From positions 1 through 53,887 of the forward strand of contig JANYFE010000056.1 in assembly GCA_025362795.1 (NCBI GenBank): a DNA stretch of 53,887 nt, given 5' to 3'. Made by a program: the position numbers and the translations under genes. The notes below the pieces were generated by a model. That model was not told the DNA's origin, did not search any database, and was given only the letters and a program-made list of their open reading frames with translations. Positions 23,139 through 40,948 of the stretch are shown here, one piece after another. Positions within the stretch are counted from its first letter, which is position 1; every line of letters begins with the position of its first letter. The DNA is from Rhodobacterales bacterium (GTDB lineage Bacteria; Pseudomonadota; Alphaproteobacteria; Rhodobacterales; Rhodobacteraceae).

Positions 23139-23654
23139 ATGGCGAAGGCATTGATCACACGACAGCACCAGAAGGGCGATGCGGCCAGTGTGGCGGTTTA
23201 TTCGTCCTGCGAACGCTATCGGTATTTGTTGACGAGGGTCTGGGCGCAGGGGCCACGGGTGGGCTTTGTCATGCTGAACCCGTCGACCGCGACAGAAGTG
23301 CAGAATGACCCGACTGTGGAACGCTGTGAACGCCGGGCGCGGGCCTTGGGCTATGGCAGTTTTGCCGTCGCAAATATCTTTGCCTTCCGCGCCACCGACC
23401 CGCGCGTCATGCGGGCCGAGGTCGATCCGGTCGGACCGGGCAATGATGCGACGATTCTGGAACTGGCGTGGCAGGCGGACCGCCTTGTCTGTGGCTGGGG
23501 CAGTCACGGCGTGCATCTGGGGCGTGGTGCGCAGGTCGAGGCGCTGTTGCGCGGCACCGGGCGCCCGCTGCATCATCTGGGGCTGACGCTGGCCGGTGCG
23601 CCAAAGCATCCGCTGTATATCGGCTATGATCGCCAGCCGAAGCTGTGGGGCTAA
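23139..23654 (+). CDS. DUF1643 domain protein
   Basis: This 171-residue cytosolic protein has the DUF1643 core: VGFVMLNPSTATEVQNDPT, RCERRARALGYGSFAVANIF, and a C-terminal HPLYIGYDRQPKLW. The family is widespread and of unknown function. The start at 23139 (MAKALITRQ) is chosen because upstream in-frame codons lack a plausible ribosome site. Its stop overlaps that of the RTX gene on the other strand by three bases, so the two converge with no terminator space. Confidence 0.8.
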   Translation: MAKALITRQHQKGDAASVAVYSSCERYRYLLTRVWAQGPRVGFVMLNPSTATEVQNDPTVERCERRARALGYGSFAVANIFAFRATDPRVMRAEVDPVGPGNDATILELAWQADRLVCGWGSHGVHLGRGAQVEALLRGTGRPLHHLGLTLAGAPKHPLYIGYDRQPKLWG

Positions 23655-24667
23655 GCCGCTTTCAGGATGAAATCACCGGCGGTCAGGCCCGCACCGCCCT
23701 GCACATTGGCCACCGCCACCCCGTCCAGCATGACGGTCGCATCGGTCGATCCGTCTGGCGTGTGCACGGTCAGTTCCGGCTCTGGGTGCTGGGCATGGTC
23801 GTAAAGAACCACCAGCGAATCCTCCTGCGGGTTGTAATCGGTGATCTGCGCCACCGGGTCGCCGTGATGGATATCGTCCAGCACGAACTGATCCGCGCCG
23901 GTGCCACCATTTCCGTAATCACCCGCCCCCAGTCGCAACAGGTCATCGCCCGCGCCGCCGTTCAGAAAATCTGCGTCATGGTCGTCGCCGCCCGCCGTAT
24001 CCTCGCCCCACAGCGTGTCATTGCCGTCGTTGCCGTCGATCGTGTCCGACCCGGCCCCGCCTGCGGTCAGATCGTCGCCCAAGCCGCCTGCGACCGCATC
24101 GGCCCCATCGCCGCCACTTAACGTGTCGTAGCCGTCGCCGCCGATCAGGCTGTCATCGCCAGTGCCGGCCTCAAGTCTGTCGTTACCACTGTCGCCCGCC
24201 AGCGTGTCATTACCATCACCGCCCGACAGGCTGTCGTTGCCGTCCTCGCCGTGCAGATCGTCCCGCCCGGCATCGCCGGTCAGTGTGTCGTCGCCGTCCC
24301 CGGCGTGCAGCCAGTCCTCGCCGTCGCCACCCTCCAGCGTGTCATCGCCTGCCCGCCCGCCCAAAAGATCGTCGCCCCCGGCCCCGGACACCGCATCGTC
24401 GCCGCCCTCGCCCGTCAGAATGTCGTCGCCGCTGGCCCCGGTCAGCGTTTCATCCGGGTCAACCGGGTCGAGCGCATCATTTGAGTGCGGCATGCCGGCA
24501 TGCAGGTCGTCCAGAAGCGAGCCGCCATCCGATAGCGGCGCCGCATCGTCGGGTGCATCCGGGTCGGCATCCTCGACGTTGTGGTCGGCACCATGATCGG
24601 TGGACATCAGTGTATCCGCCACGACACCGGCAAAAAGAGCGCCAAACAATCCCAGAAGTCCCAGCAT
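23651..24667 (-). CDS. RTX-type calcium-binding protein with N-terminal membrane segment
   Basis: The 338-residue acidic protein begins with a hydrophobic segment (MLGLLGLFGALFAGVVADT), an aspartate-rich spacer, then about 15 nonapeptide repeats of GGxGxDxUx type over residues 75-240 (for example GGDGNDTLAGDSGNDRLEAG), which form a calcium-filled beta-roll. A small beta domain follows with DQFVLDDI and ITDYNPQEDSLVVLYD. AGCGGGAG lies ahead of ATG 24667. It may be membrane-anchored or exported through type I secretion; no secretion genes are nearby. An 18-base palindrome lies just upstream. Confidence 0.85.
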   Translation of the reverse strand: MLGLLGLFGALFAGVVADTLMSTDHGADHNVEDADPDAPDDAAPLSDGGSLLDDLHAGMPHSNDALDPVDPDETLTGASGDDILTGEGGDDAVSGAGGDDLLGGRAGDDTLEGGDGEDWLHAGDGDDTLTGDAGRDDLHGEDGNDSLSGGDGNDTLAGDSGNDRLEAGTGDDSLIGGDGYDTLSGGDGADAVAGGLGDDLTAGGAGSDTIDGNDGNDTLWGEDTAGGDDHDADFLNGGAGDDLLRLGAGDYGNGGTGADQFVLDDIHHGDPVAQITDYNPQEDSLVVLYDHAQHPEPELTVHTPDGSTDATVMLDGVAVANVQGGAGLTAGDFILKAA

Positions 24668-24986
24668 CCCCACACTCCCGCTTGACGCCACCCACCTGCG
24701 GCGTTAACAAGTGTTAACGTCAACCCATTGGCGTTACGTGATAATCCTGAAAACAGCCTGCCAGAAAAAGCGCCCTAGATCCAGCAGGACTGGCGGTTCA
24801 ACTGGGGAAATCCCGCGCTTGGGTTAACCGGACCTTACCGGAGCAGGCTGCAAGCCTCTGCGCTTTCCGGCCTTTCCTTTTCGTGCCAGACCTCCTATAC
24901 GCGCGCATCCACCGCAACGTGGAACCAAGGGCCTTGCTGGACGACATCCCGGCTTGTGCCGTCACACCAACCGCAAGGAGACACCG
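24668..24986. other. Divergent intergenic region between RTX gene and rpsO
   Basis: This 319-base gap must carry the promoters of the leftward RTX gene and rightward rpsO. It holds a perfect palindrome next to the RTX start and a GGGTTAACC box near 24822. Before rpsO, TATACG at 24896-24901 could be a -10 hexamer, but no convincing -35 was found. No gene or RNA is evident. Confidence 0.5.
24702..24719. promoter_or_regulatory. 18-bp palindrome upstream of the RTX gene
   Basis: CGTTAACA-AG-TGTTAACG is a perfect inverted repeat with eight-base arms and a two-base centre, 35 bases before the RTX start codon. It contains two TTAA boxes six bases apart, one base short of the TTAA-N7-TTAA CtrA consensus. 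It is most simply a dimeric operator for the RTX gene. Confidence 0.5.
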
Positions 24987-25256
24987 ATGTCGATCACTGT
25001 CGAAGTCAAAGCCCAACTGATCAAGGACTATGCAACCAAGGAAAATGACACCGGTTCGCCGGAAGTTCAGGTTGCCATCCTGTCGTCGCGCATCGCCACG
25101 CTGACCGAACACTTCAAGGGCCACAAGAAAGACAACCACTCGCGCCGTGGTCTGTTGATGATGGTCGCCCAGCGCCGCAAGCTGCTGGACTACCTGAAGT
25201 CCAAGGACGAAAGCCGCTACCAGTCGCTGATCACGCGCCTGAGCCTGCGCCGCTGA
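24987..25256 (+). CDS. rpsO: 30S ribosomal protein S15
   Basis: S15 binds 16S rRNA and forms part of the platform of the 30S subunit. The 89-residue protein has the family sequence [37 protein letters not shown] and a final [15 protein letters not shown] lies six bases before the ATG. In most alphaproteobacteria it directly follows truB and precedes pnp; here an RTX gene on the opposite strand sits on either side of it. A strong terminator follows. Confidence 0.98.
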
Positions 25257-25325: not shown

Positions 25326-26729
25326 TCAAACCACAAGGAAATCATCAATCGTCAGCAACGCATGGTTGGCGATAATGGCAAACAGCACCGGCGGCGCAGA
25401 GGCGGCACCGTTCAAATTGCCATCGGGATCATACATCAGCCTGCCGCTTGCCGGGTCATAAAGGATGCGGTCATCGCCATCCAGCGCTGCGCCACCATAG
25501 ATGAATTCCTGCGCGTCCAAAGCTGCGTGAACCTCGGAAAACGTGGCGCTTGCCAGCCCGATCTTGTCCTCGCCATGCGCGAAATCGGTGATCTTGTCGA
25601 CATTCGACGGGCCGGTGTCGCGGAACAGGAAGACGTCTTTTCCGGCTTCGCCCGTCAGCGTGTCCTTGCCTGACCCGCCCGCAAGCAGATCGTCGCCATC
25701 GCCACCCAGCAACTTGTCGTTGCCCTGACCGCCGGACATATCATCGGCCGCAAGTCCGCCCCACAGCGTATCATTGCCGTTACCGCCGCTCAGGGTGTCG
25801 CTGTCCCCGCCGCCATTGATGGAATCGTTACCGTCGTCGCCGGTGATGTCGTCGGTGCCGTAAAAGCCATTGATGCTGTCGTTGCCACTGTCGGCCTGGA
25901 CGGTGTCGTTTCCGGCCCCGCCCGAAATGGAATCCGACCCGAAGCCACCGTAGATCTTGTCGTCGCCGTTGCCGCTGTCCAGCCTGTCATTCTCGGACCC
26001 GCCATACATCAGATCGTTGCCGTCGTTGCCGTAAACGGTATCGGCTTCTGAATCGCCAAAAAGCGTATCCTGACCGTCACCACCAAAGATCAGGTCACCG
26101 CCGGTCAGGCCATGAACAAAGTCATCGCCCGCAGCCCCCCGCAACGTGTCGACAAGGTCGCCGCCACTGAAAACATCGCCAAACTGGCCGCCTTTGATGT
26201 TGACCGCGAAAAAGTCAGGGGCCGTGGTGAATTCTTCGATCAGCAGGGCGTCTGTGGACGAGAAGCTCCCCAGTTTGCCGCCCAGGTCGCTGTATGCGCA
26301 AGCGCTGGCCCGGAATTCATTGGTCATCACGTAGTTGAACCAATCGTCCAGCGCCGTACCGTAGGCGTTGATGTCCAGCGTCGATTGGTCAACGGCGGCA
26401 TCGCCGGTATAGGCGGCTTTGACATAATTCTCCCATATTGGCATGCCATTAACCGGAATGTCGAACCGCAGGACCTCTTTTTCGAACAGATTGATCAGGT
26501 CGAACTGGCTGCTGTGCGGGGAATGGCCGACGAAAAACTTCGGCACGCCTTCTGTGCCTTCGCGGGCCGGAATGGTGTCAACCGTACCGTTGGTATAGGT
26601 CAGCACAACTGCCGCCTCCGGCTCACCTTTGCCATTCCACCCGAAGGGATCGCGCACCAGGATGGGCCGCAGGTCATTTTCCGTGATGCCGCGGTAAGAG
26701 GACGTAAAATCCAAGGTGATCGTCGTCAT
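25326..26729 (-). CDS. RTX calcium-binding protein, serralysin-C-type end
   Basis: The 467-residue acidic protein lacks an N-terminal signal. Residues 1-180 form a non-repeat domain without recognised motifs (TLDFTSSYRGITENDLRP at the start). From about residue 185 to 385 there are some 20 RTX nonapeptides such as GGDGQDTLFGDSEADTVYGN. The end, with DVFLFRDTG, VDKITDFAHGEDKIGL and a hydrophobic DDFLVV tail, resembles the serralysin C-terminal secretion region recognised by type I systems. AAAGGGG precedes the ATG. It is probably secreted and calcium-folded outside the cell; no transporter genes are in the window. Confidence 0.88.
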   Translation of the reverse strand: MTTITLDFTSSYRGITENDLRPILVRDPFGWNGKGEPEAAVVLTYTNGTVDTIPAREGTEGVPKFFVGHSPHSSQFDLINLFEKEVLRFDIPVNGMPIWENYVKAAYTGDAAVDQSTLDINAYGTALDDWFNYVMTNEFRASACAYSDLGGKLGSFSSTDALLIEEFTTAPDFFAVNIKGGQFGDVFSGGDLVDTLRGAAGDDFVHGLTGGDLIFGGDGQDTLFGDSEADTVYGNDGNDLMYGGSENDRLDSGNGDDKIYGGFGSDSISGGAGNDTVQADSGNDSINGFYGTDDITGDDGNDSINGGGDSDTLSGGNGNDTLWGGLAADDMSGGQGNDKLLGGDGDDLLAGGSGKDTLTGEAGKDVFLFRDTGPSNVDKITDFAHGEDKIGLASATFSEVHAALDAQEFIYGGAALDGDDRILYDPASGRLMYDPDGNLNGAASAPPVLFAIIANHALLTIDDFLVV

Positions 26730-27073: not shown

Positions 27074-29203
27074 ATGTTTAACGTTACGCGAAAATCCATC
27101 CAGTGGGGCAATGAGACCCTGACACTGGAATCGGGCAAGGTTGCCCGTCAGGCGGATGGCACGGTCATCGCCACGGTTGGTGAAACCAGTGTCATGGCCA
27201 ACGTGACCTATGCGCGCAGCCCGAAGCCGGGGCAGGATTTCTTCCCGCTGACCGTGCACTACCAGGAAAAATACTACGCAGCGGGCAAGATTCCCGGCGG
27301 TTTCTTCAAGCGTGAAGCGCGACCGTCCGAAAAGGAAACGCTGACCTCGCGGCTGATCGACCGTCCGTGCCGCCCGCTGTTCGTCGAAGGCTTCAAGAAC
27401 GAAGTCCTCGTCATGGCGACCGTGCTGTCGCATGACCTGACCAACGACCCGGATATCGTGGCGATGATTGCCGTGTCGGCCGCACTGACGATTTCCGGCG
27501 TGCCGTTCATGGGGCCGATTGGCGCTGCGCGCGTCGGCTTCTCCAAGGGGGCCTATGTCCTGAACCCGTCGGTTGACGACATGCAGGGTCTGCGCAACAA
27601 CCCGGATCAGCGGCTTGATCTGGTCATCGCGGGCACCAAAGACGCCGTGATGATGGTCGAATCGGAAGCCTACGAGCTGACCGAAGACGAAATGCTGGGT
27701 GCGGTGAAGTTTGGCCATGCAGCGATGCAGCCGGTGATCGACCTGATCATCGACTTTGCCGAACTGTGCGCCAAGGAACCGATGGACTTTTCCCCGCCGG
27801 ATTATTCCGCCTTGTATGCCAACGTCAAAGCGGCAGGCGAGGTGCAGATGCGAGCCGCATTCGCGATCCGTGACAAGCAGGAACGCACCACCGCCATCAG
27901 CGCCGCTTCTGCCGCGATCAAGGCGACCTTGTCTGCCGAAGATCTGGCTGATGCGAACCTTGGTTCCGCGATCAAAAAGCTGGAATCGTCGATCCTGCGC
28001 GGTGACATCATCAACGGTGGTGCCCGGATCGACGGTCGTGACAACAAGACCGTCCGCCCGATTTCGGCGGAAACCGGCATTCTGCCGCGCACCCACGGTT
28101 CGGCCCTGTTCACCCGGGGTGAGACGCAGGGTCTGGTCGTGACGACGCTCGGCACTGGCGAAGATGAGCAGATCATCGACGCCTTGCACGGCAATTCGCG
28201 GTCGAACTTCCTGCTGCACTATAACTTCCCGCCCTATTCGGTTGGTGAAGTGGGTCGTGTAGGCTCACCCGGCCGTCGCGAGATCGGTCATGGCAAGCTG
28301 GCATGGCGGGCGTTGCAGGCGGTTCTGCCTGCGGCTACCGACTTCCCCTACACGATCCGGGTTGTCAGCGAGATCACCGAATCCAACGGGTCATCCTCGA
28401 TGGCTTCGGTCTGCGGTGGGTCGCTGTCGATGATGGACGCGGGCGTTCCGCTGAAATCGCCGGTCGCGGGCGTGGCGATGGGTCTGATCCTGGAAGAGGA
28501 TGGCCGCTTTGCCGTTCTGACCGACATTCTGGGTGATGAAGATCACCTGGGCGACATGGACTTCAAGGTCGCAGGTACGGCCAACGGCATCACCACGATG
28601 CAGATGGACATCAAGATTGCGGGCATCACGCCCGAAATCATGGCGCAGGCATTGTCGCAAGCGCGCGATGGCCGCCTGCACATTCTGGGCGAGATGAACA
28701 AATCGCTGAGCGCCCCTGCGGGCTTCAGCGAATACGCGCCCAAGATCGAAACGCTGTCGATCCCGACCGACAAGATCCGCGAAGTCATCGGGTCCGGTGG
28801 CAAGGTCATCCGCGAAATCGTGGAACTGTCCGGTGCCAAGGTCGATATCAACGACGATGGCATGATCAAGATCGCGTCCAACGACGCGGCGGCGATCAAG
28901 CGGGCCTATGACATGATCTGGTCAATCGTGGCAGAGCCGGAAGAAGGCAAGGTTTACACCGGCAAGGTCGTGAAACTGGTTGATTTCGGGGCCTTCGTGA
29001 ACTTTTTCGGCAAGCGTGACGGTCTGGTGCATGTCAGCCAGATTGCAAACAAGCGCCTGAACCACCCGAACGAGGCGTTGAAGGAAGGTCAGGAAGTGAA
29101 GGTCAAACTTCTGGGCTTTGACGACCGTGGCAAGGTGCGCCTTGGCATGAAGATGGTCGATCAGGAAACCGGCCTGGAAATCGCGGAAAGCGCCGAGGCG
29201 TAA
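27074..29203 (+). CDS. pnp: Polyribonucleotide nucleotidyltransferase
   Basis: PNPase is the trimeric 3'-5' phosphorolytic RNase of the degradosome. The 709-residue protein has two RNase PH domains (the first with [20 protein letters not shown] and RPLFVEGF; the second with [21 protein letters not shown] and [11 protein letters not shown]). A KH domain lies near residue 567 ([17 protein letters not shown]) and an S1 domain near 625 ([17 protein letters not shown]). Length and order are normal. A clear terminator follows 20 bases after the stop. Confidence 0.98.
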
Positions 29204-29224
29204 ATCTGGCGAAACCAACAGAAA

Positions 29225-29252
29225 GGCCCCGGTGGAAACGCCGGGGCTTTTT
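29225..29252 (+). terminator. Intrinsic terminator after pnp
   Basis: GCCCCGG (29226-29232) pairs with CCGGGGC (29241-29247) around TGGAAACG and is followed by TTTTT (29248-29252). It separates pnp from the glycosyltransferase gene, whose start is only 15 bases further on, so that gene needs its own promoter or read-through. Confidence 0.88.
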
Positions 29253-29266
29253 GGTTATGCAGGCGC

Positions 29267-30121
29267 ATGGATGACCTGACCGCCATTTCCGTCGCCTATA
29301 ACAGCCATGCCGTTTTGCCGGGGATGGCAGACTGCCTGCCTGCCGGAACCCGGCTGATCGTGGTCGACAACGGTCCCGACGATGGCTTGCGCGACTGGGC
29401 GGCGGGGCGGGGTGTCAAGCTGTTGATCCCCGGCGAAAACCTTGGCTTCGGGCGGGCGTGCAACCTTGGCGCTGCGGCGGCGGACAGCACGTTCCTGCTG
29501 TTCCTGAACCCCGATGCGCGGCCTGCGCCTGATGCCATCGCACATCTGCTGGCGGCGGCGGCCCGCCACCCGACTGCGGCGGCCTTTGGCCCGGTGCTCA
29601 TAAACGCGGGCGGTCAGGTTCGTTACAAGCGCAATTCGTATTTGCTGCGCCGCGCGGCCAAACCCCCGCGTGATCCCGGCCCAGAGGATCGGGCGGTTTC
29701 CGTGCTGTCCGGCGCGGCCCTGATGGTACGCCGCGATGCGTTTCAGAAGGTCGGCGGCTTTGACCCCCGCATTTTCCTGTATTTCGAGGATGACGACCTG
29801 TGTCTACGGCTGCGCCAGTTCGCCGGTCCGCTGATCCTGGTGCCTGCGGCGCGGGTCGGTCATGCGGCGGGCACCTCGTCCACACCTTCGGCGGCGTTGT
29901 CGCGGTTCAAGGGCTATCACTGGGCGCGCTCGCGGGTCCATGTGGGGCGCAAGCATGGCGTGCGTCTGCCTTGGCTTGGCGGGCTTTGGGACGGGATTTC
30001 CCATCTGGCCTCGCCCAAATCATGGTCAGATGCCGCGCACCGCGGCGAAGCCTTGGGTCGGGTGCAGGGCGCACTTTCCATGTGGCGCAGCCAGATGTTA
30101 GAACGGGCGACAGCCCAGTGA
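29267..30121 (+). CDS. Family 2 glycosyltransferase
   Basis: This 284-residue GT-A enzyme resembles rhamnosyltransferase-type GT2 proteins: ISVAYNSHAVLPGM at the N-terminus, IVVDNGPDDG, ENLGFGRACNLGAAAA, FLNPDARPAPDAI around residue 85, and the acceptor-side motif VGGFDPRIFLYFEDDDLCLR near 160. It would transfer a sugar from a nucleotide donor during surface polysaccharide synthesis, with donor unknown. It opens a three-gene cluster with two FkbM methyltransferases; its stop overlaps a possible GTG start of the next gene. Confidence 0.87.
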   Translation: MDDLTAISVAYNSHAVLPGMADCLPAGTRLIVVDNGPDDGLRDWAAGRGVKLLIPGENLGFGRACNLGAAAADSTFLLFLNPDARPAPDAIAHLLAAAARHPTAAAFGPVLINAGGQVRYKRNSYLLRRAAKPPRDPGPEDRAVSVLSGAALMVRRDAFQKVGGFDPRIFLYFEDDDLCLRLRQFAGPLILVPAARVGHAAGTSSTPSAALSRFKGYHWARSRVHVGRKHGVRLPWLGGLWDGISHLASPKSWSDAAHRGEALGRVQGALSMWRSQMLERATAQ

Positions 30122-30132
30122 ACGGACCCCGC

Positions 30133-30879
30133 ATGTTCAAATATTCTGACCTGAAATATCTGCGCCGCCGCGTGTTTCTTGACCTGCATGACCGTGTTTT
30201 CGGGTCCGGCTACCGGATGGACGGCGCAAATTTCAGTATGCCACTGGGCAGCCACCCTTCACCGCGCCGTGCTATCCTGCGCGGCACCTATGAAGAAAAC
30301 GAACGGGCGCTGATCAAGGCGCATCTGCCGCAGGACCTGCCCGCGATCGAGCTTGGCGGGTCTTACGGCATCGTGTCGCATGCCATTCGCCGGGCACTGT
30401 CCCCCGGGTCGCAGCTGGTGGTGGTCGAGGCGAACCCGAATCTGATCGCAACCTGCCGGACCAATGTCAGTCTGGGCGGTGCGGTGGACCGGACGACCGT
30501 CGTGCAGGCAGCTGTGGCCTATGGCGGGGCTAGGGTGCGGTTCAAGCTGACCAAAAATGTCCACACCTCGCATCTGGTTTTTGATGACGTCCCCGGCGAA
30601 GGCATCGTCGATGTGCCTTCCGTCACCTTGCAAAGCCTGCGGGTGGCGCAGCAGATATCCGGCCCGTTCAGCCTGATCTGCGACATCGAAGGCGCCGAAC
30701 TGCTGGTGTTGCGCAACGATGCCGCCGCGCTGGCCGACTGTGCGATGATCATCATGGAAACCCATCCGCCGGCCTATGCCACGATGGGCGGCTCGATGGA
30801 CGAAGTGCTGTCCCGGCTGTCTGACTTGGGCTTTCACATCTTCGACCGGCGCGCCGAGGTGATTGCCGCCCGCCGATGA
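30133..30879 (+). CDS. FkbM family methyltransferase
   Basis: The 248-residue protein has an S-adenosylmethionine fold of FkbM type: AIELGGSYGIVSHAIRR near residue 72, VVVEANPNLIATCRTN near 98, a central VHTSHL, and LICDIEGAELLVLRND with MIIMETHPP. FkbM enzymes O-methylate sugars or polyketides. GTG 30118 is an alternative start that would overlap the upstream stop. The domain is a close paralogue of the C-terminal half of the next protein. Motif identity between the two is high, pointing to a tandem duplication. Confidence 0.88.
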   Translation: MFKYSDLKYLRRRVFLDLHDRVFGSGYRMDGANFSMPLGSHPSPRRAILRGTYEENERALIKAHLPQDLPAIELGGSYGIVSHAIRRALSPGSQLVVVEANPNLIATCRTNVSLGGAVDRTTVVQAAVAYGGARVRFKLTKNVHTSHLVFDDVPGEGIVDVPSVTLQSLRVAQQISGPFSLICDIEGAELLVLRNDAAALADCAMIIMETHPPAYATMGGSMDEVLSRLSDLGFHIFDRRAEVIAARR

Positions 30880-30946
30880 CCGGCCCGGTCGATTGACGCG
30901 ATCCTGGCCAGCGACTAGGCCATTGCCACTGCCACAGGAGACTTCG

Positions 30947-32488
30947 GTGTCGCACAACTTTCCGGCTTTTGCCAAAAACATCGCTGACGCCGGACCAACC
31001 GGGCCGACCTACAGTTTTTGTACTTTGGTCTCGCAACCCCATATGTACGCGCAAATGCTGGAGTCTTTTGTCGCAGCGGGTTTCACAGCGGCAGATTGTG
31101 AATATCTCTACATCGACAACAGCACGACCAATCAGGGTGACGGCTTTCGCGGCCTGAATCGTCTGATCACACAGGCCAGCGGCAAGTTTGTCGTGCTGTG
31201 CCATCAGGATTTGCTCGCCATCGACCCGCGCAGCGTGCTGGATGCCTGTCTGGCGGACCTTGACCGCGTTGCACCGGATTGGGCTGTTGCGGGAAACTCC
31301 GGGCACAATCGCAGGGGCATGCGGGTGGAACGGCTGACGGACCGGCATGGCTACGGCACCTCATTGGGAAAGTTGCCGGGTCAGGTTGTCAGTCTGGACG
31401 AGAATTTCCTGCTGATCCGCCGCGCAGCAGGCCTGGGTCTGTCCGATGATCTTGCGGGGTTTCATCTGTATGGCACCGACCTTGTGACGCAGGCCGGTTT
31501 GCGCGGGCGCAGCGCCTGGGTGATCAGCTTTCACCTGGAACATCTGGGGCTTGGCCGGCTGGATGCCGGTTTCGCCACCAGCCTTGCCGCTTTTTCCCGA
31601 AAATATCGCCGCGCCTTTCGGAAGCGCCGCGTGACAACGCCGACGGTGGCCCTGCAACTGGGCGGCCTTGATCTGGCCGCGCGGTTCCGGGCCTACAAAC
31701 TGCAGCGCACCAAGGACGGCAAAAAGCCGTTTGCAGTGGCACGGGCGGCAACCCGCTGGGTCAAGGCGCTGCCGTTCGTCCTCCACGAATGGCGCAACGG
31801 CCCGCGCTATGCCGTGGATGGCACGGTGTTCACCATTCCCGACAAATCACCCCTGGCGGCCCGCAAGGCATTGCGCCGGGGCCAGTACGAGGGGCCGGAA
31901 CGGCGGATGATTACCAAATGGCTGCCAAAGACCTTGCCGGTGATCGAACTGGGCGGCTCTTACGGCATTGTCAGCCATGCGATTCGCCGCCATATCGCGC
32001 CGGACCTTGACCTGATCATCGTCGAGGCGAACCCCGACCTTCTGGCCACCTGCCGCGCCAATGTGGCACTGGCCGGGATGCCAGCCGAACGCACGCAGGT
32101 CATCGGCGCCGCTTTGGCTTACGGTGCGCAAACCGTGCGCTTTGCCGTGACCAGCGGCATTCACACCTCACATGTCGCTGGCGCGGACGAGGGTCTGACC
32201 GGCCAGCGCATCGTCGAGGTGCCGGTGGCCAACCTGACCGGGCTGCTGAGGGACGCCAAAATCACCGGTGACTACGCTTTGGTCTGCGACATCGAGGGCG
32301 CGGAATATGATCTTTTGCACAACGACAGCGCCATGTTGGCCCGTTGTGCGGTGATGATCATGGAAATTCACCCTGACACATTCATTGACCGTGGCAGCAG
32401 CGTCACCGAATTTCTCCGGATGCTGAATGCTGCGGGTTTCGACATTGTGGATCACGAAGCCCAGGTCATCGTCGCCCGTCGTCGCTGA
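30947..32488 (+). CDS. Fusion of glycosyltransferase-like and FkbM methyltransferase domains
   Basis: The 513-residue protein has two parts. Residues about 20-240 look like a GT-A glycosyltransferase (TYSFCTLVSQPHMYAQML, LYIDNSTTNQGDGFRGLNR, and VVLCHQDLLAIDPRS with H86-Q87-D88, as in the Glyco_tranf_2_5 group). A basic linker (KYRRAFRKRR) follows. Residues about 325-513 are an FkbM methyltransferase (VIELGGSYGIVSHAIRR, IIVEANPDLLATCRAN, CDIEGAEYDLL). GTG 30947 is chosen because CAGGAG lies six bases upstream. The fusion would allow sugar transfer and O-methylation by one polypeptide, perhaps for capping a chain (inference). Confidence 0.83.
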   Translation: MSHNFPAFAKNIADAGPTGPTYSFCTLVSQPHMYAQMLESFVAAGFTAADCEYLYIDNSTTNQGDGFRGLNRLITQASGKFVVLCHQDLLAIDPRSVLDACLADLDRVAPDWAVAGNSGHNRRGMRVERLTDRHGYGTSLGKLPGQVVSLDENFLLIRRAAGLGLSDDLAGFHLYGTDLVTQAGLRGRSAWVISFHLEHLGLGRLDAGFATSLAAFSRKYRRAFRKRRVTTPTVALQLGGLDLAARFRAYKLQRTKDGKKPFAVARAATRWVKALPFVLHEWRNGPRYAVDGTVFTIPDKSPLAARKALRRGQYEGPERRMITKWLPKTLPVIELGGSYGIVSHAIRRHIAPDLDLIIVEANPDLLATCRANVALAGMPAERTQVIGAALAYGAQTVRFAVTSGIHTSHVAGADEGLTGQRIVEVPVANLTGLLRDAKITGDYALVCDIEGAEYDLLHNDSAMLARCAVMIMEIHPDTFIDRGSSVTEFLRMLNAAGFDIVDHEAQVIVARRR

Positions 32489-32502
32489 CGCGGGTTGCCC
32501 AC

Positions 32503-32856
32503 CTATTCCGGTGTCAGAATCTCGGTTCCCACGGCGTTGACACCTGCCACGGTCCAGGTGCCCTCCAGCGTGCCGTCGTCCTGCACCAGATAGATCACCA
32601 GCCCTACTTTGCCGTTCAGTTCATAGCCCGCGGTAAACGCGTTGCCGTCGCGCATGCAGATGCCGTCAGAGGTGCTGCCGCCGGTCCGCCAGACAATCTC
32701 GCAGGTGTATTCGCTGGTCTTGGTGATCTGGGCGTCGCCCTCATAGATCGTGCCGTCCAGATTGGTGCCTTTCACCCGATAATGCCCGCCAATGTCCTGT
32801 GCCAGGGCCCAGGGTGCCGACATCAGCAAAAACCAGACTGTCAGGAATAGCTTCAT
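32503..32856 (-). CDS. Small exported protein of unknown function
   Basis: The 117-residue protein has a signal peptide (MKLFLTVWFLLMSAPWALA, cleaved before QDIGG) and a mature part of about 98 residues built from beta strands: GGHYRVKGTNLDGTIYEGDA, TCEIVWRTGG, LEGTWTVAG and VGTEILTP. Two cysteines may form a disulfide. The pattern of G-x-Y-x-V-x-G-x-N-x-D-G resembles small periplasmic lipocalin-like repeats, but no family is claimed. GGGAG precedes ATG 32856; the ORF extends further upstream without a better start. It converges on the GT-FkbM gene. Confidence 0.7.
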   Translation of the reverse strand: MKLFLTVWFLLMSAPWALAQDIGGHYRVKGTNLDGTIYEGDAQITKTSEYTCEIVWRTGGSTSDGICMRDGNAFTAGYELNGKVGLVIYLVQDDGTLEGTWTVAGVNAVGTEILTPE

Positions 32857-33021
32857 CTTGCATCTCCCAGTTTGCGACGCGCCTTTTCTAGCGCAATTTT
32901 GGTCTGGCCCATAGCAAATCAAACAACCGCATTCTGCGATGCGATGGTGGTTTCTGCGGTCTGTCTTGAATTTTGTCGAATAAATCATCGACTTTAATCA
33001 GATATTAGAATATAGTTTGCG

Positions 33022-33036
33022 ATAATTGATCATTAT
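33022..33036. promoter_or_regulatory. AT-rich palindrome upstream of dadA
   Basis: ATAAT-TGATC-ATTAT lies about 75 bases before the dadA start, inside a distinctly AT-rich stretch (about 32985-33060). DadA genes are often controlled by Lrp/AsnC-type regulators, which favour such A/T-rich imperfect palindromes. The regulator is not encoded here, so the role is inference. Confidence 0.35.
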
Positions 33037-39249: not shown

Positions 39250-40110
39250 TCAGTCTGCCGGAACCTTGCGGACAATCCCGTTCTCTGTCCAGGTCTTGCC
39301 CGTGCTGCGCGCCGCGGCAATCATCTCGCGGTTGTGGCGCTGCATCGCCGGGTCCACATAGCCGCGCTTGTGGTCCAGATGATACAGCGGTGCCGAATAG
39401 CGCAGCGTCACGCCCTTGATCCCGGCATTGCCAAGGCGGATGCCAAACTCCTTGTCTTCGCCGCCATAGGCCATGTCTTCGTCAAACCCGTTCACTTTCA
39501 GGATATTATCCCGCGACGTCGCGGCATTTCCCCCCGCCCAGCTTTTGCGGATCGGCGACAGTGCATCCAGAACCCCCATCACGCCGGGCGACAGCGGCAT
39601 CGACTTCAGCCGTTCAGACAGCCCAGTCGCCTTCCAGCCCGGCAGCCGCCCCCGCTGCCAATCCACCCGGCCCGCCGCCATCAACCGCTGCGACAGCGCC
39701 GCATCCAGCCGGATCACACTGCCCGTCACAAAACAGTCGGGCCGGGCCAGCCTGACATGCCGTTCGATGAACCTTGGATGCATCAGGCAATCGTCGTCGA
39801 TGAACACCAGGTAGTCAGCCTCCGAACTCTGGATGGCTTTGTTCACGATCGCGGTTTTGCGAAAACCCTGATCTGCGTGCCAGACATGGCGCAGGGGCAG
39901 GTCGGCAAATTCCGCCAGAACCGCCGCGGTCCGGGCATCCGATCCGTCATCCGCGATACAAACCGCGTCTGGCAGCCGCCTCTGCTGGCGCACGGCGGAC
40001 AGCGCGAGCCGCAGATACTCCGGTTTCTGATAGGTCGCAATGACCAGCTCAACCCGCAAAGTCCGCCGCCCGTTCCAGAAATGCCAGGGCCGCCCGGTCC
40101 TCGACCTCAT
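39250..40110 (-). CDS. Family 2 glycosyltransferase with galactosyltransferase-like C-terminus
   Basis: This GT-A enzyme has VELVIATYQKPEYLRLALSA, ADDGSDARTAAVL, a DxD-like LVFIDDDCLMHPRF, and the C-terminal motif KVNGFDEDMAYGGEDKEFGI that is typical of galactosyltransferase-type GT2/GT7 ends. The start is uncertain: ATG 40110 after GAGG overlaps the upstream gene by 62 bases, while TTG 40059 would cut overlap to 11. With the preceding GT92-like gene it forms a two-gene operon, probably for a surface glycan. Confidence 0.83.
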   Translation of the reverse strand: MRSRTGRPWHFWNGRRTLRVELVIATYQKPEYLRLALSAVRQQRRLPDAVCIADDGSDARTAAVLAEFADLPLRHVWHADQGFRKTAIVNKAIQSSEADYLVFIDDDCLMHPRFIERHVRLARPDCFVTGSVIRLDAALSQRLMAAGRVDWQRGRLPGWKATGLSERLKSMPLSPGVMGVLDALSPIRKSWAGGNAATSRDNILKVNGFDEDMAYGGEDKEFGIRLGNAGIKGVTLRYSAPLYHLDHKRGYVDPAMQRHNREMIAAARSTGKTWTENGIVRKVPAD

Positions 40111-40948
40111 CCGCCTCTATATTCGCAACCTTCCGCATCACCCGCCGCAGATGGTCGGCGTCGGGCGTCGTCAGGTTCGGCCCCCGTGCGATCTTGGCCC
40201 GCAACTCCGCGTCCGATCTTGTGTAATAATGGTTCAGCTGGATACGGTCCGTCGCGTAAAACCCCCGCCCCTCACGCCCTTTGTTGCTGAACCGCTCGCC
40301 CCGGTCGTTGCAGGTGTCACTCGACCCGTCGGTTTCCACGACATGCACCTTGATCGCCGTCACATGGCAGGGGTCCACGATCATCTTGAAATTCCGCAAA
40401 CCCTTGACCCCGCTCATCGGGTCCGGATTGCGCTTTGTGTAATTGGCGACAACCCCGCCCACCGGCACCTCCATTTGCCCCGAACGGCCGAACATATGCC
40501 ACGGCAAGGATATGTTGCGGCACCCTTCCAGCCCCGCCAAAGCCTCGTCCAGCCCCACGCCTTTCGGCACCAGAAACTCATCAGCATCCAGATAGCTCAT
40601 CCAGCGAAACCGCCCGCCAAAGTTGCGCGTGGCATGGGCATAGGCCAGCACCTGATTGTGAATCTCATGCCCGCTTGCGGCATCGCGGAACTTCTGATCC
40701 CAAGGCACCACCGTCAGCGCCTCGCCCAGAAACGTCAACGCCGCAATCGTGCCATCGGTGCAGCCGTTGTCATACACCACAAAATGCCGCACGCCCGCCA
40801 GCCGATGGAACCGCGCCCATTCGGCGATGTGCCGCACCTCGTTGCGCACAATCAGCACCAGCGCCAGACCGGCACGGCCCGGCTGCGGCGCAGGCGGATC
40901 AATCGCGATCTTGGTGATGCTTTGCGCGCGCGCCAGAAACCCGAACAT
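40049..40948 (-). CDS. Glycosyltransferase family 92-like protein
   Basis: The 299-residue protein matches the GT92 (DUF23) layout: ALVLIVRNEVRHIAEWARFH, GVRHFVVYDNGCTDGT, RWMSYLDADEFLVP (DxD around residue 120), and a C-terminal segment FYATDRIQLNHYYTRSDAEL. GT92 enzymes add hexoses, often galactose. The sequence is predicted cytosolic and may act on lipid-linked glycans. It is the first of two glycosyltransferase genes on this strand, separate from the GT2-FkbM cluster 8 kb away. Confidence 0.82.
   Translation of the reverse strand: MFGFLARAQSITKIAIDPPAPQPGRAGLALVLIVRNEVRHIAEWARFHRLAGVRHFVVYDNGCTDGTIAALTFLGEALTVVPWDQKFRDAASGHEIHNQVLAYAHATRNFGGRFRWMSYLDADEFLVPKGVGLDEALAGLEGCRNISLPWHMFGRSGQMEVPVGGVVANYTKRNPDPMSGVKGLRNFKMIVDPCHVTAIKVHVVETDGSSDTCNDRGERFSNKGREGRGFYATDRIQLNHYYTRSDAELRAKIARGPNLTTPDADHLRRVMRKVANIEADEVEDRAALAFLERAADFAG

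Follow-up and report, generated by a model that had tools for sequence, protein, structure and literature searches.

A majastridin-type glycosyltransferase fused to an FkbM-family methyltransferase, beside a paralogous methyltransferase, downstream of pnp in a Rhodobacterales genome

The islet and its protein domains

Three plus-strand genes follow pnp in the window (the whole stretch of DNA that was analysed, 53,887 nucleotides of a Rhodobacterales genome, G000 in what follows): a GT2-family glycosyltransferase of 284 amino acids (29267..30121; PF00535, E 5e-16), a stand-alone FkbM-family methyltransferase (MT) of 248 amino acids (30133..30879), and a 513-amino-acid fusion (30947..32488) in which a majastridin-type GT-A glycosyltransferase (GT) domain (residues ~18-240; 30998..31666) is followed by an FkbM methyltransferase domain (residues ~279-513; 31781..32485). 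The fusion is delineated by domain searches and by full-length homologues in three other genomes (G007, G196 and G136). Its gene starts with GTG, preceded by AGGAGA, and is separated by 67 bases from the MT gene, which lies 11 bases downstream of the GT2 gene; the GT2 gene also accompanies the MT/fusion pair in G007 and G196. The G+C content of the islet (0.632) gives no sign of foreign composition when set against 3.2 kb stretches of the window, which average 0.620 (sd 0.023). A G+C-rich hairpin with a T tract, 3' of pnp (29226..29252, no strand assigned), is a weak feature read by eye that possibly marks the end of the pnp transcript and the upstream edge of the islet. A terminator scan flagged its stem on the minus strand only; the promoter and terminator scan gave no excess over shuffled sequence (4 terminator-like sites vs a shuffled mean of 3.9). 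On the other side of pnp, two repeat-rich proteins of the GGxGxD type, RTX-like by eye, are encoded on the minus strand (23651-24691 and 25326-26729), flanking a short gene (24954-25256); similar proteins are found near pnp in some other genomes.

The stand-alone MT and residues 279-512 of the fusion are 50% identical (116/234 identities, E 2e-72 in BLASTP), a resemblance far beyond chance by alignment, and both copies contain the motifs ELGGSYGIVSHAIRR, VEANP and CDIEGAE. Both also exceed the curated cut-offs of the family: for PF05050 (Pfam, cut-off 22.7 bits) the stand-alone copy scores 46.1 bits and the fused copy 33.7, and for TIGR01444 (NCBIfam, cut-off 37.7 bits) the scores are 55.7 and 57.4. 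By profile, the two are thus FkbM-family methyltransferases, with SAM-dependent O-methylation as the predicted activity, and an earlier note on this DNA, which had remarked on the shared motifs and on the family, is borne out in both respects. The acid of VEANP we take to be the SAM-site acid, and we presume a role for the DIEGAE-type motif likewise. The two copies are the closest pair within their own genome; BLASTP at E 0.01 matches neither of them with the third FkbM gene, which is on contig C84. Distant relatives of the 248-residue protein are widespread (164 of 394 genomes of the family match it at E 0.001, with low identity), and matches at E <1e-30 beyond its own genome are confined in that set to G196 (56%), G345 (50%), G209 (37%) and G043 (35%).

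What precedes the fused MT is less readily named, as a Pfam scan of the fusion finds FkbM as its only family. A phmmer search of the PDB returned two sequences, 2nxv ("Structure of the 6th ORF of the Rhodobacter blastica ATPase operon; Majastridin") and 2qgi ("The UDP complex structure of the sixth gene product of the F1-ATPase operon of Rhodobacter blasticus", public since 2008 by its PDB release date), at E 1.4e-34, aligning residues 18-240 of the query with 14-243 of the chain. In an AlphaFold model most ten-residue blocks between residues 21 and 200 have pLDDT values of 80-95, and a Foldseek search with this GT model again gives 2nxv and 2qgi as the best matches (TM 0.85 on the target); the MT half is modelled at low confidence (pLDDT ~30-65, from an alignment of eight sequences, two of them with the MT). 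The HQD triplet (H86-Q87-D88), present in 4/4 fused proteins, aligns with HED of 2nxv. By sequence and by model, the N-terminal half of the fusion is accordingly assigned to the majastridin family of GT-A glycosyltransferases, for which UDP binding and sugar transfer are predicted; the aspartate of HQD, to judge from the GT-A fold, would hold the metal and UDP. The earlier note's GT-A-like domain with an HQD motif has in this way acquired a family, and the structure prediction that it proposed has yielded a fold for one half of the protein. Majastridin itself differs from the fusion in that its solved chain has 249 residues and no methyltransferase domain. We know of no natural function for it, and none was found in the open-licence literature searched. 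Falsiroseomonas oryziterrae has two majastridin-type GT genes in tandem (L021:7941-9599), the second with RQD in place of HQD.

Distribution and history

Is the fusion real? The earlier note had considered that absence from other strains would point to an assembly error. Three other genomes encode homologues of the whole protein (68, 58 and 40% identity) with the same architecture, and the idea that two genes were joined by chance or by faulty assembly, for which no support was found, is therefore rejected as next to impossible. Among G000 and 40 relatives (41 genomes) there is one further full-length match, in G007 (68%), which belongs to the same genus; within the genus, 2/16 genomes carry the fusion, G000 included. 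Across the family (394 genomes, from 393 genera) the GT half finds a match in 32 genomes (33 matches, 30 of them with a locus). A search of loci L001-L137 (phmmer E 1e-5) for frames that contain the GT and the MT half together gives those of G000, G007, G196 and G136. At the level of the class, 39 of 385 genomes have some match, full-length in G000 only, with no more than three candidates scored in each genome. Stand-alone relatives of the GT half that can be named come from a Roseomonas MAG, F. oryziterrae (the two copies just mentioned), Roseivivax and two further MAGs. A viral or plasmid origin was also considered and rejected: neither query has a relative in IMG/VR (by pattern scans that reach close relatives only), and 3 of 72,556 plasmid records give matches, all partial and below 60% identity.

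The order of the cassette is GT2-MT-fusion in G000 and G007 and GT2-fusion-MT in G196, where a 401-residue gene, Fic-like by eye, lies between pnp and GT2 (L056:8741-9946; it has an HPFEDGNGR motif, and its translation includes a short run of X). In G345, G043 and G209, pnp is followed by GT2 and then by one MT of the same type, and the fusion is absent; the simplest reading is that this arrangement of pnp, GT2 and a single MT is the ancestral state.

The site after pnp is variable. The pnp gene was located in 22/22 genomes, and the genes lying up to ~1.5 kb from it (or as far as a nearby contig end allowed) were matched against those of the window at E 1e-8. In four of these genomes (G002, G007, G008, G011) the site is empty, a homologue of window gene 32503-32988, which in G000 directly follows the islet, coming directly after pnp. 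GT2 together with an MT follows pnp in G345, G043, G209 and G000; the related GT2 that comes after pnp in G009 is at a contig end, and no islet-type MT was seen there; G003 has a divergent FkbM-like frame (31%). The remaining 12/22 genomes show no islet gene in the pnp flank; in G196 the islet lies beyond the flank, and in G014 the contig ends. The cassette of G007 is on another contig (4,142 bases), away from pnp, where it adjoins homologues of window genes 39250-40110 (71%) and 40049-40948 (87% over 79 amino acids, at the contig end). These comparisons suggest that the islet has probably been gained and lost among relatives. The states of the site (window 29203-33026, loci L138-L160) can be listed as empty, GT2 without MT, GT2 with MT, GT2 with MT and fusion, and divergent FkbM.

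The earlier note had proposed a tandem duplication with domain capture, and had expected the two MT domains to be each other's closest relatives. Within G000 they are the closest pair, as already described; across genomes they are not, the nearest relative of each being its counterpart in G007. In a tree of 21 MT rows, in which 4/18 inner branches are well supported, the stand-alone MTs of G000 and G007 pair (99/98) and are joined by that of G196 in a clade (96/99); the fused MTs of G000 and G007 likewise pair (90/87). Constraining the two window copies to be sisters is rejected by the AU test (p-AU 9.8e-40), as is monophyly of the four copies from G000 and G007 (p-AU 5.4e-5); the groups tested were defined after inspection of the tree. 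With each window copy nearer to its G007 counterpart and sisterhood rejected, the duplication must be older than the split between the two species, and a recent tandem duplication within G000 is rejected on the MT tree and these post hoc AU tests.

The deeper order of events is harder to read. The single MT of G345 groups with the stand-alone copies (88/87), and G196 fused MT, the fused pair of G000 and G007, and the stand-alone group with G345 meet in an unresolved fork, so placed that the three intact fused MTs form no resolved clade; the MT half of G136 is a long branch outside the other groups. A six-copy clade that excludes G345 is not rejected (p-AU 0.109), nor is a clade of all four fused MTs, that of G136 included (p-AU 0.11). 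The GT half is more decisive: in a tree of 38 rows (36 distinct) the four fused GT domains constitute one clade (100/99), which argues for one fusion event. By these comparisons the fusion is an inherited architecture. Duplication and capture thus stand in outline, given the single-MT relatives, the one GT clade and the recurring fusion; it is the recent origin that falls, the history being older and more complex than the note had it.

Both halves of the fusion have been maintained by purifying selection between G000 and G007, as has the stand-alone MT: NG86 values of dN/dS are 0.224/0.854 for the stand-alone MT, 0.269/1.49 for the fused GT and 0.230/0.995 for the fused MT, a comparison that covers these three and in which dS is high, making the ratios rough. 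G136 presents a different picture. Its fused MT keeps 33/63 of the positions that are invariant in the seven other MTs and has lost the VEANP acid, the DIEGAE motif and ~35 residues, while its GT half keeps 42/49 of those that do not vary among seven other GT domains, of which three come from fusions; leaving out each of the seven intact MTs in turn gives 89-98%, figures that are flattered by the way the positions were chosen. By this count the MT half of G136 has decayed and the GT half has been kept, and with the acid and DIEGAE gone the fused GT there would do without an active MT half. The fused MTs of G000, G007 and G196 retain DIEGAE and the acid, the motif reading VEAIP in G196. The gene for the G136 fusion (L057:9083-10489) overlaps an upstream DUF5672 gene, and a gene that by eye looks atpB-like lies ~2.5 kb away; majastridin, too, takes its name from a gene of an atp operon.

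Related systems

The earlier note knew of no system for such a fusion, which was too strong a statement. The closest tested precedent for its logic is, by analogy and by the description in PMC9614988, found in chlorovirus PBCV-1: A064R is reported to add two rhamnoses and a 2-O-methyl group on the terminal rhamnose, and A061L, a separate MT, to follow with a 3-O-methyl group, for which the 2-O-methyl is a prerequisite (PMC9614988). Like the islet, the PBCV-1 pair combines a protein in which GT activity is joined to a C-terminal MT with a second, free-standing MT, which in PBCV-1 works on the glycan that the fusion modifies; G000 has that layout of a GT-MT fusion and a separate MT. The likeness is one of description, and as described (PMC9614988) A064R differs in being viral and in having two GT domains, the first with a GT34-like fold.

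In the O7 antigen of Klebsiella, a multidomain protein with MT, kinase and GT functions is described as helping to build the chain and ending it (PMC11231755). An MT within a multidomain protein that ends a glycan chain is common ground with ORF6-O7 and WbdD, which by the same account (PMC11231755) differ in making methyl-phosphate caps with their kinase. A Pfam scan of the window fusion, with matches accepted up to E 1, shows no kinase family. Pfam would miss a kinase that has diverged as far as the ORF6-O7 one, but the GT (18-240) and MT (279-512) of the fusion are separated by a short linker only, too short to house such a domain; a methyl-phosphate terminator of the WbdD/ORF6-O7 type was accordingly rejected. 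In Ochrobactrum, an FkbM gene in an O-antigen cluster has been suggested to control chain length, by the account in PMC10888714.

Other FkbM-glycosyltransferase proteins also exist nearer home. Among the loci in hand there are seven further MT-bearing open frames of >450 amino acids, of which five have FkbM ahead of GT92/GT2_4, one has FkbM behind GT61, and the last, which comes from another family, shows no GT; in one of the five, at L091, the FkbM score is 19.6, below the cut-off of 22.7. The proteins from the same family resemble the window fusion in joining FkbM and a glycosyltransferase in one frame, and differ in their GT types and in that the MT is N-terminal in 5/6. Fusions of GT with MT, and of GT with FkbM, are thus known and recurrent as such. 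The novelty lies in the combination of FkbM with a GT of the majastridin type, which Pfam misses, one MT copy being tied to this GT and its paralogue standing beside it; no description of a majastridin-FkbM fusion was found in the open-licence papers searched. A further frame, in G163 (L047:436-2304), has a majastridin-like GT stretch (127-267) followed by a sulfotransferase domain (394-566), and so is, by its domains, another GT tied to a decorating enzyme.

What the islet may do

Our preferred reading, to which we give a probability of about 0.6, is that the islet is a small glycan-decorating unit, gained and lost among relatives, whose fusion would transfer a sugar from its UDP donor to the glycan and O-methylate the growing end. 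The GT2, the majastridin-type GT and the two FkbM MTs would act in the cytoplasm on a nascent surface glycan, candidates for which are lipopolysaccharide core, O-chain or exopolysaccharide. The majastridin-type domain would add one sugar, its HQD aspartate holding the metal; the tethered FkbM domain would O-methylate the newly added sugar or its neighbour; the stand-alone paralogue would methylate a second hydroxyl or else the sugar added by the neighbouring GT2. The product would be a methylated, probably terminal, sugar, varying from strain to strain because the islet is gained and lost. That sugar transfer and methylation cap a glycan in one step, as the earlier note suggested, is plausible. 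No genes for a sugar-nucleotide pathway, flippase, polymerase or exporter were recognised beside the islet (Pfam, 9 window genes), and glycosylation of a secondary metabolite or of protein is a possible alternative to a surface glycan.

How might the two MTs share the work? They may be dedicated to different sugars, with the stand-alone MT modifying the residue that GT2 adds and the fused MT the one that comes from the majastridin-type GT. The GT2 and single MT found after pnp in G345, G043 and G209 suggest an old partnership of that kind, and the fused copy is tied to a GT of its own; on the other hand, pnp of G009 is followed by a related GT2, and no islet-type MT was seen there. We hold this division of labour tentatively, at somewhat less than even odds. 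Both MTs might instead act in sequence on one terminal sugar and make a di-O-methyl cap, in the manner of A064R followed by A061L, an order that was demonstrated experimentally for the PBCV-1 pair according to PMC9614988. The co-occurrence of fusion and stand-alone MT in G000, G007 and G196 and the constraint on both MTs between G000 and G007 are in keeping with that order of action; a fusion with a decayed MT in G136, and an MT without fusion in G345, G043 and G209, tell against it, and we consider it rather doubtful. It can be elaborated into a transferable capping islet, in which an MT was duplicated, a majastridin-type GT captured one of the copies, the paralogues build a di-O-methyl terminal sugar in fixed order, and the surface cap is switched between strains as the fused MT is gained, is lost or decays; this we judge unlikely, and worth stating since, if true, the ordered di-O-methyl cap would be a first function for a majastridin-type protein.

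The fusion could also be an accidental merger of genes with no catalytic coupling, its MT half a passenger or scaffold. That is how the G136 protein might be read, with its unequal retention of MT and GT positions, and it is poorly reconciled with the DIEGAE and VEANP acid kept in the fused MTs of the three other genomes, or with a fused MT about as constrained as the stand-alone one; as a general account we find it distinctly improbable.

Returning to the glycan-decorating unit, the fusion links the majastridin type of GT to a methylating partner and so suggests UDP-sugar and SAM as the components of an assay. Single MT, duplicated MT, fusion and decayed fusion together make a compact example of the rise and erosion of a glycan-decorating enzyme. 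If the product is a surface cap, the presence of the islet might also predict strain-specific glycans and phage sensitivity. Elsewhere in the window, the minus-strand genes at 39250-40110 and 40049-40948, whose homologues adjoin the cassette in G007, are of GT2 and GT92 type and perhaps belong to the same glycan pathway as the islet.
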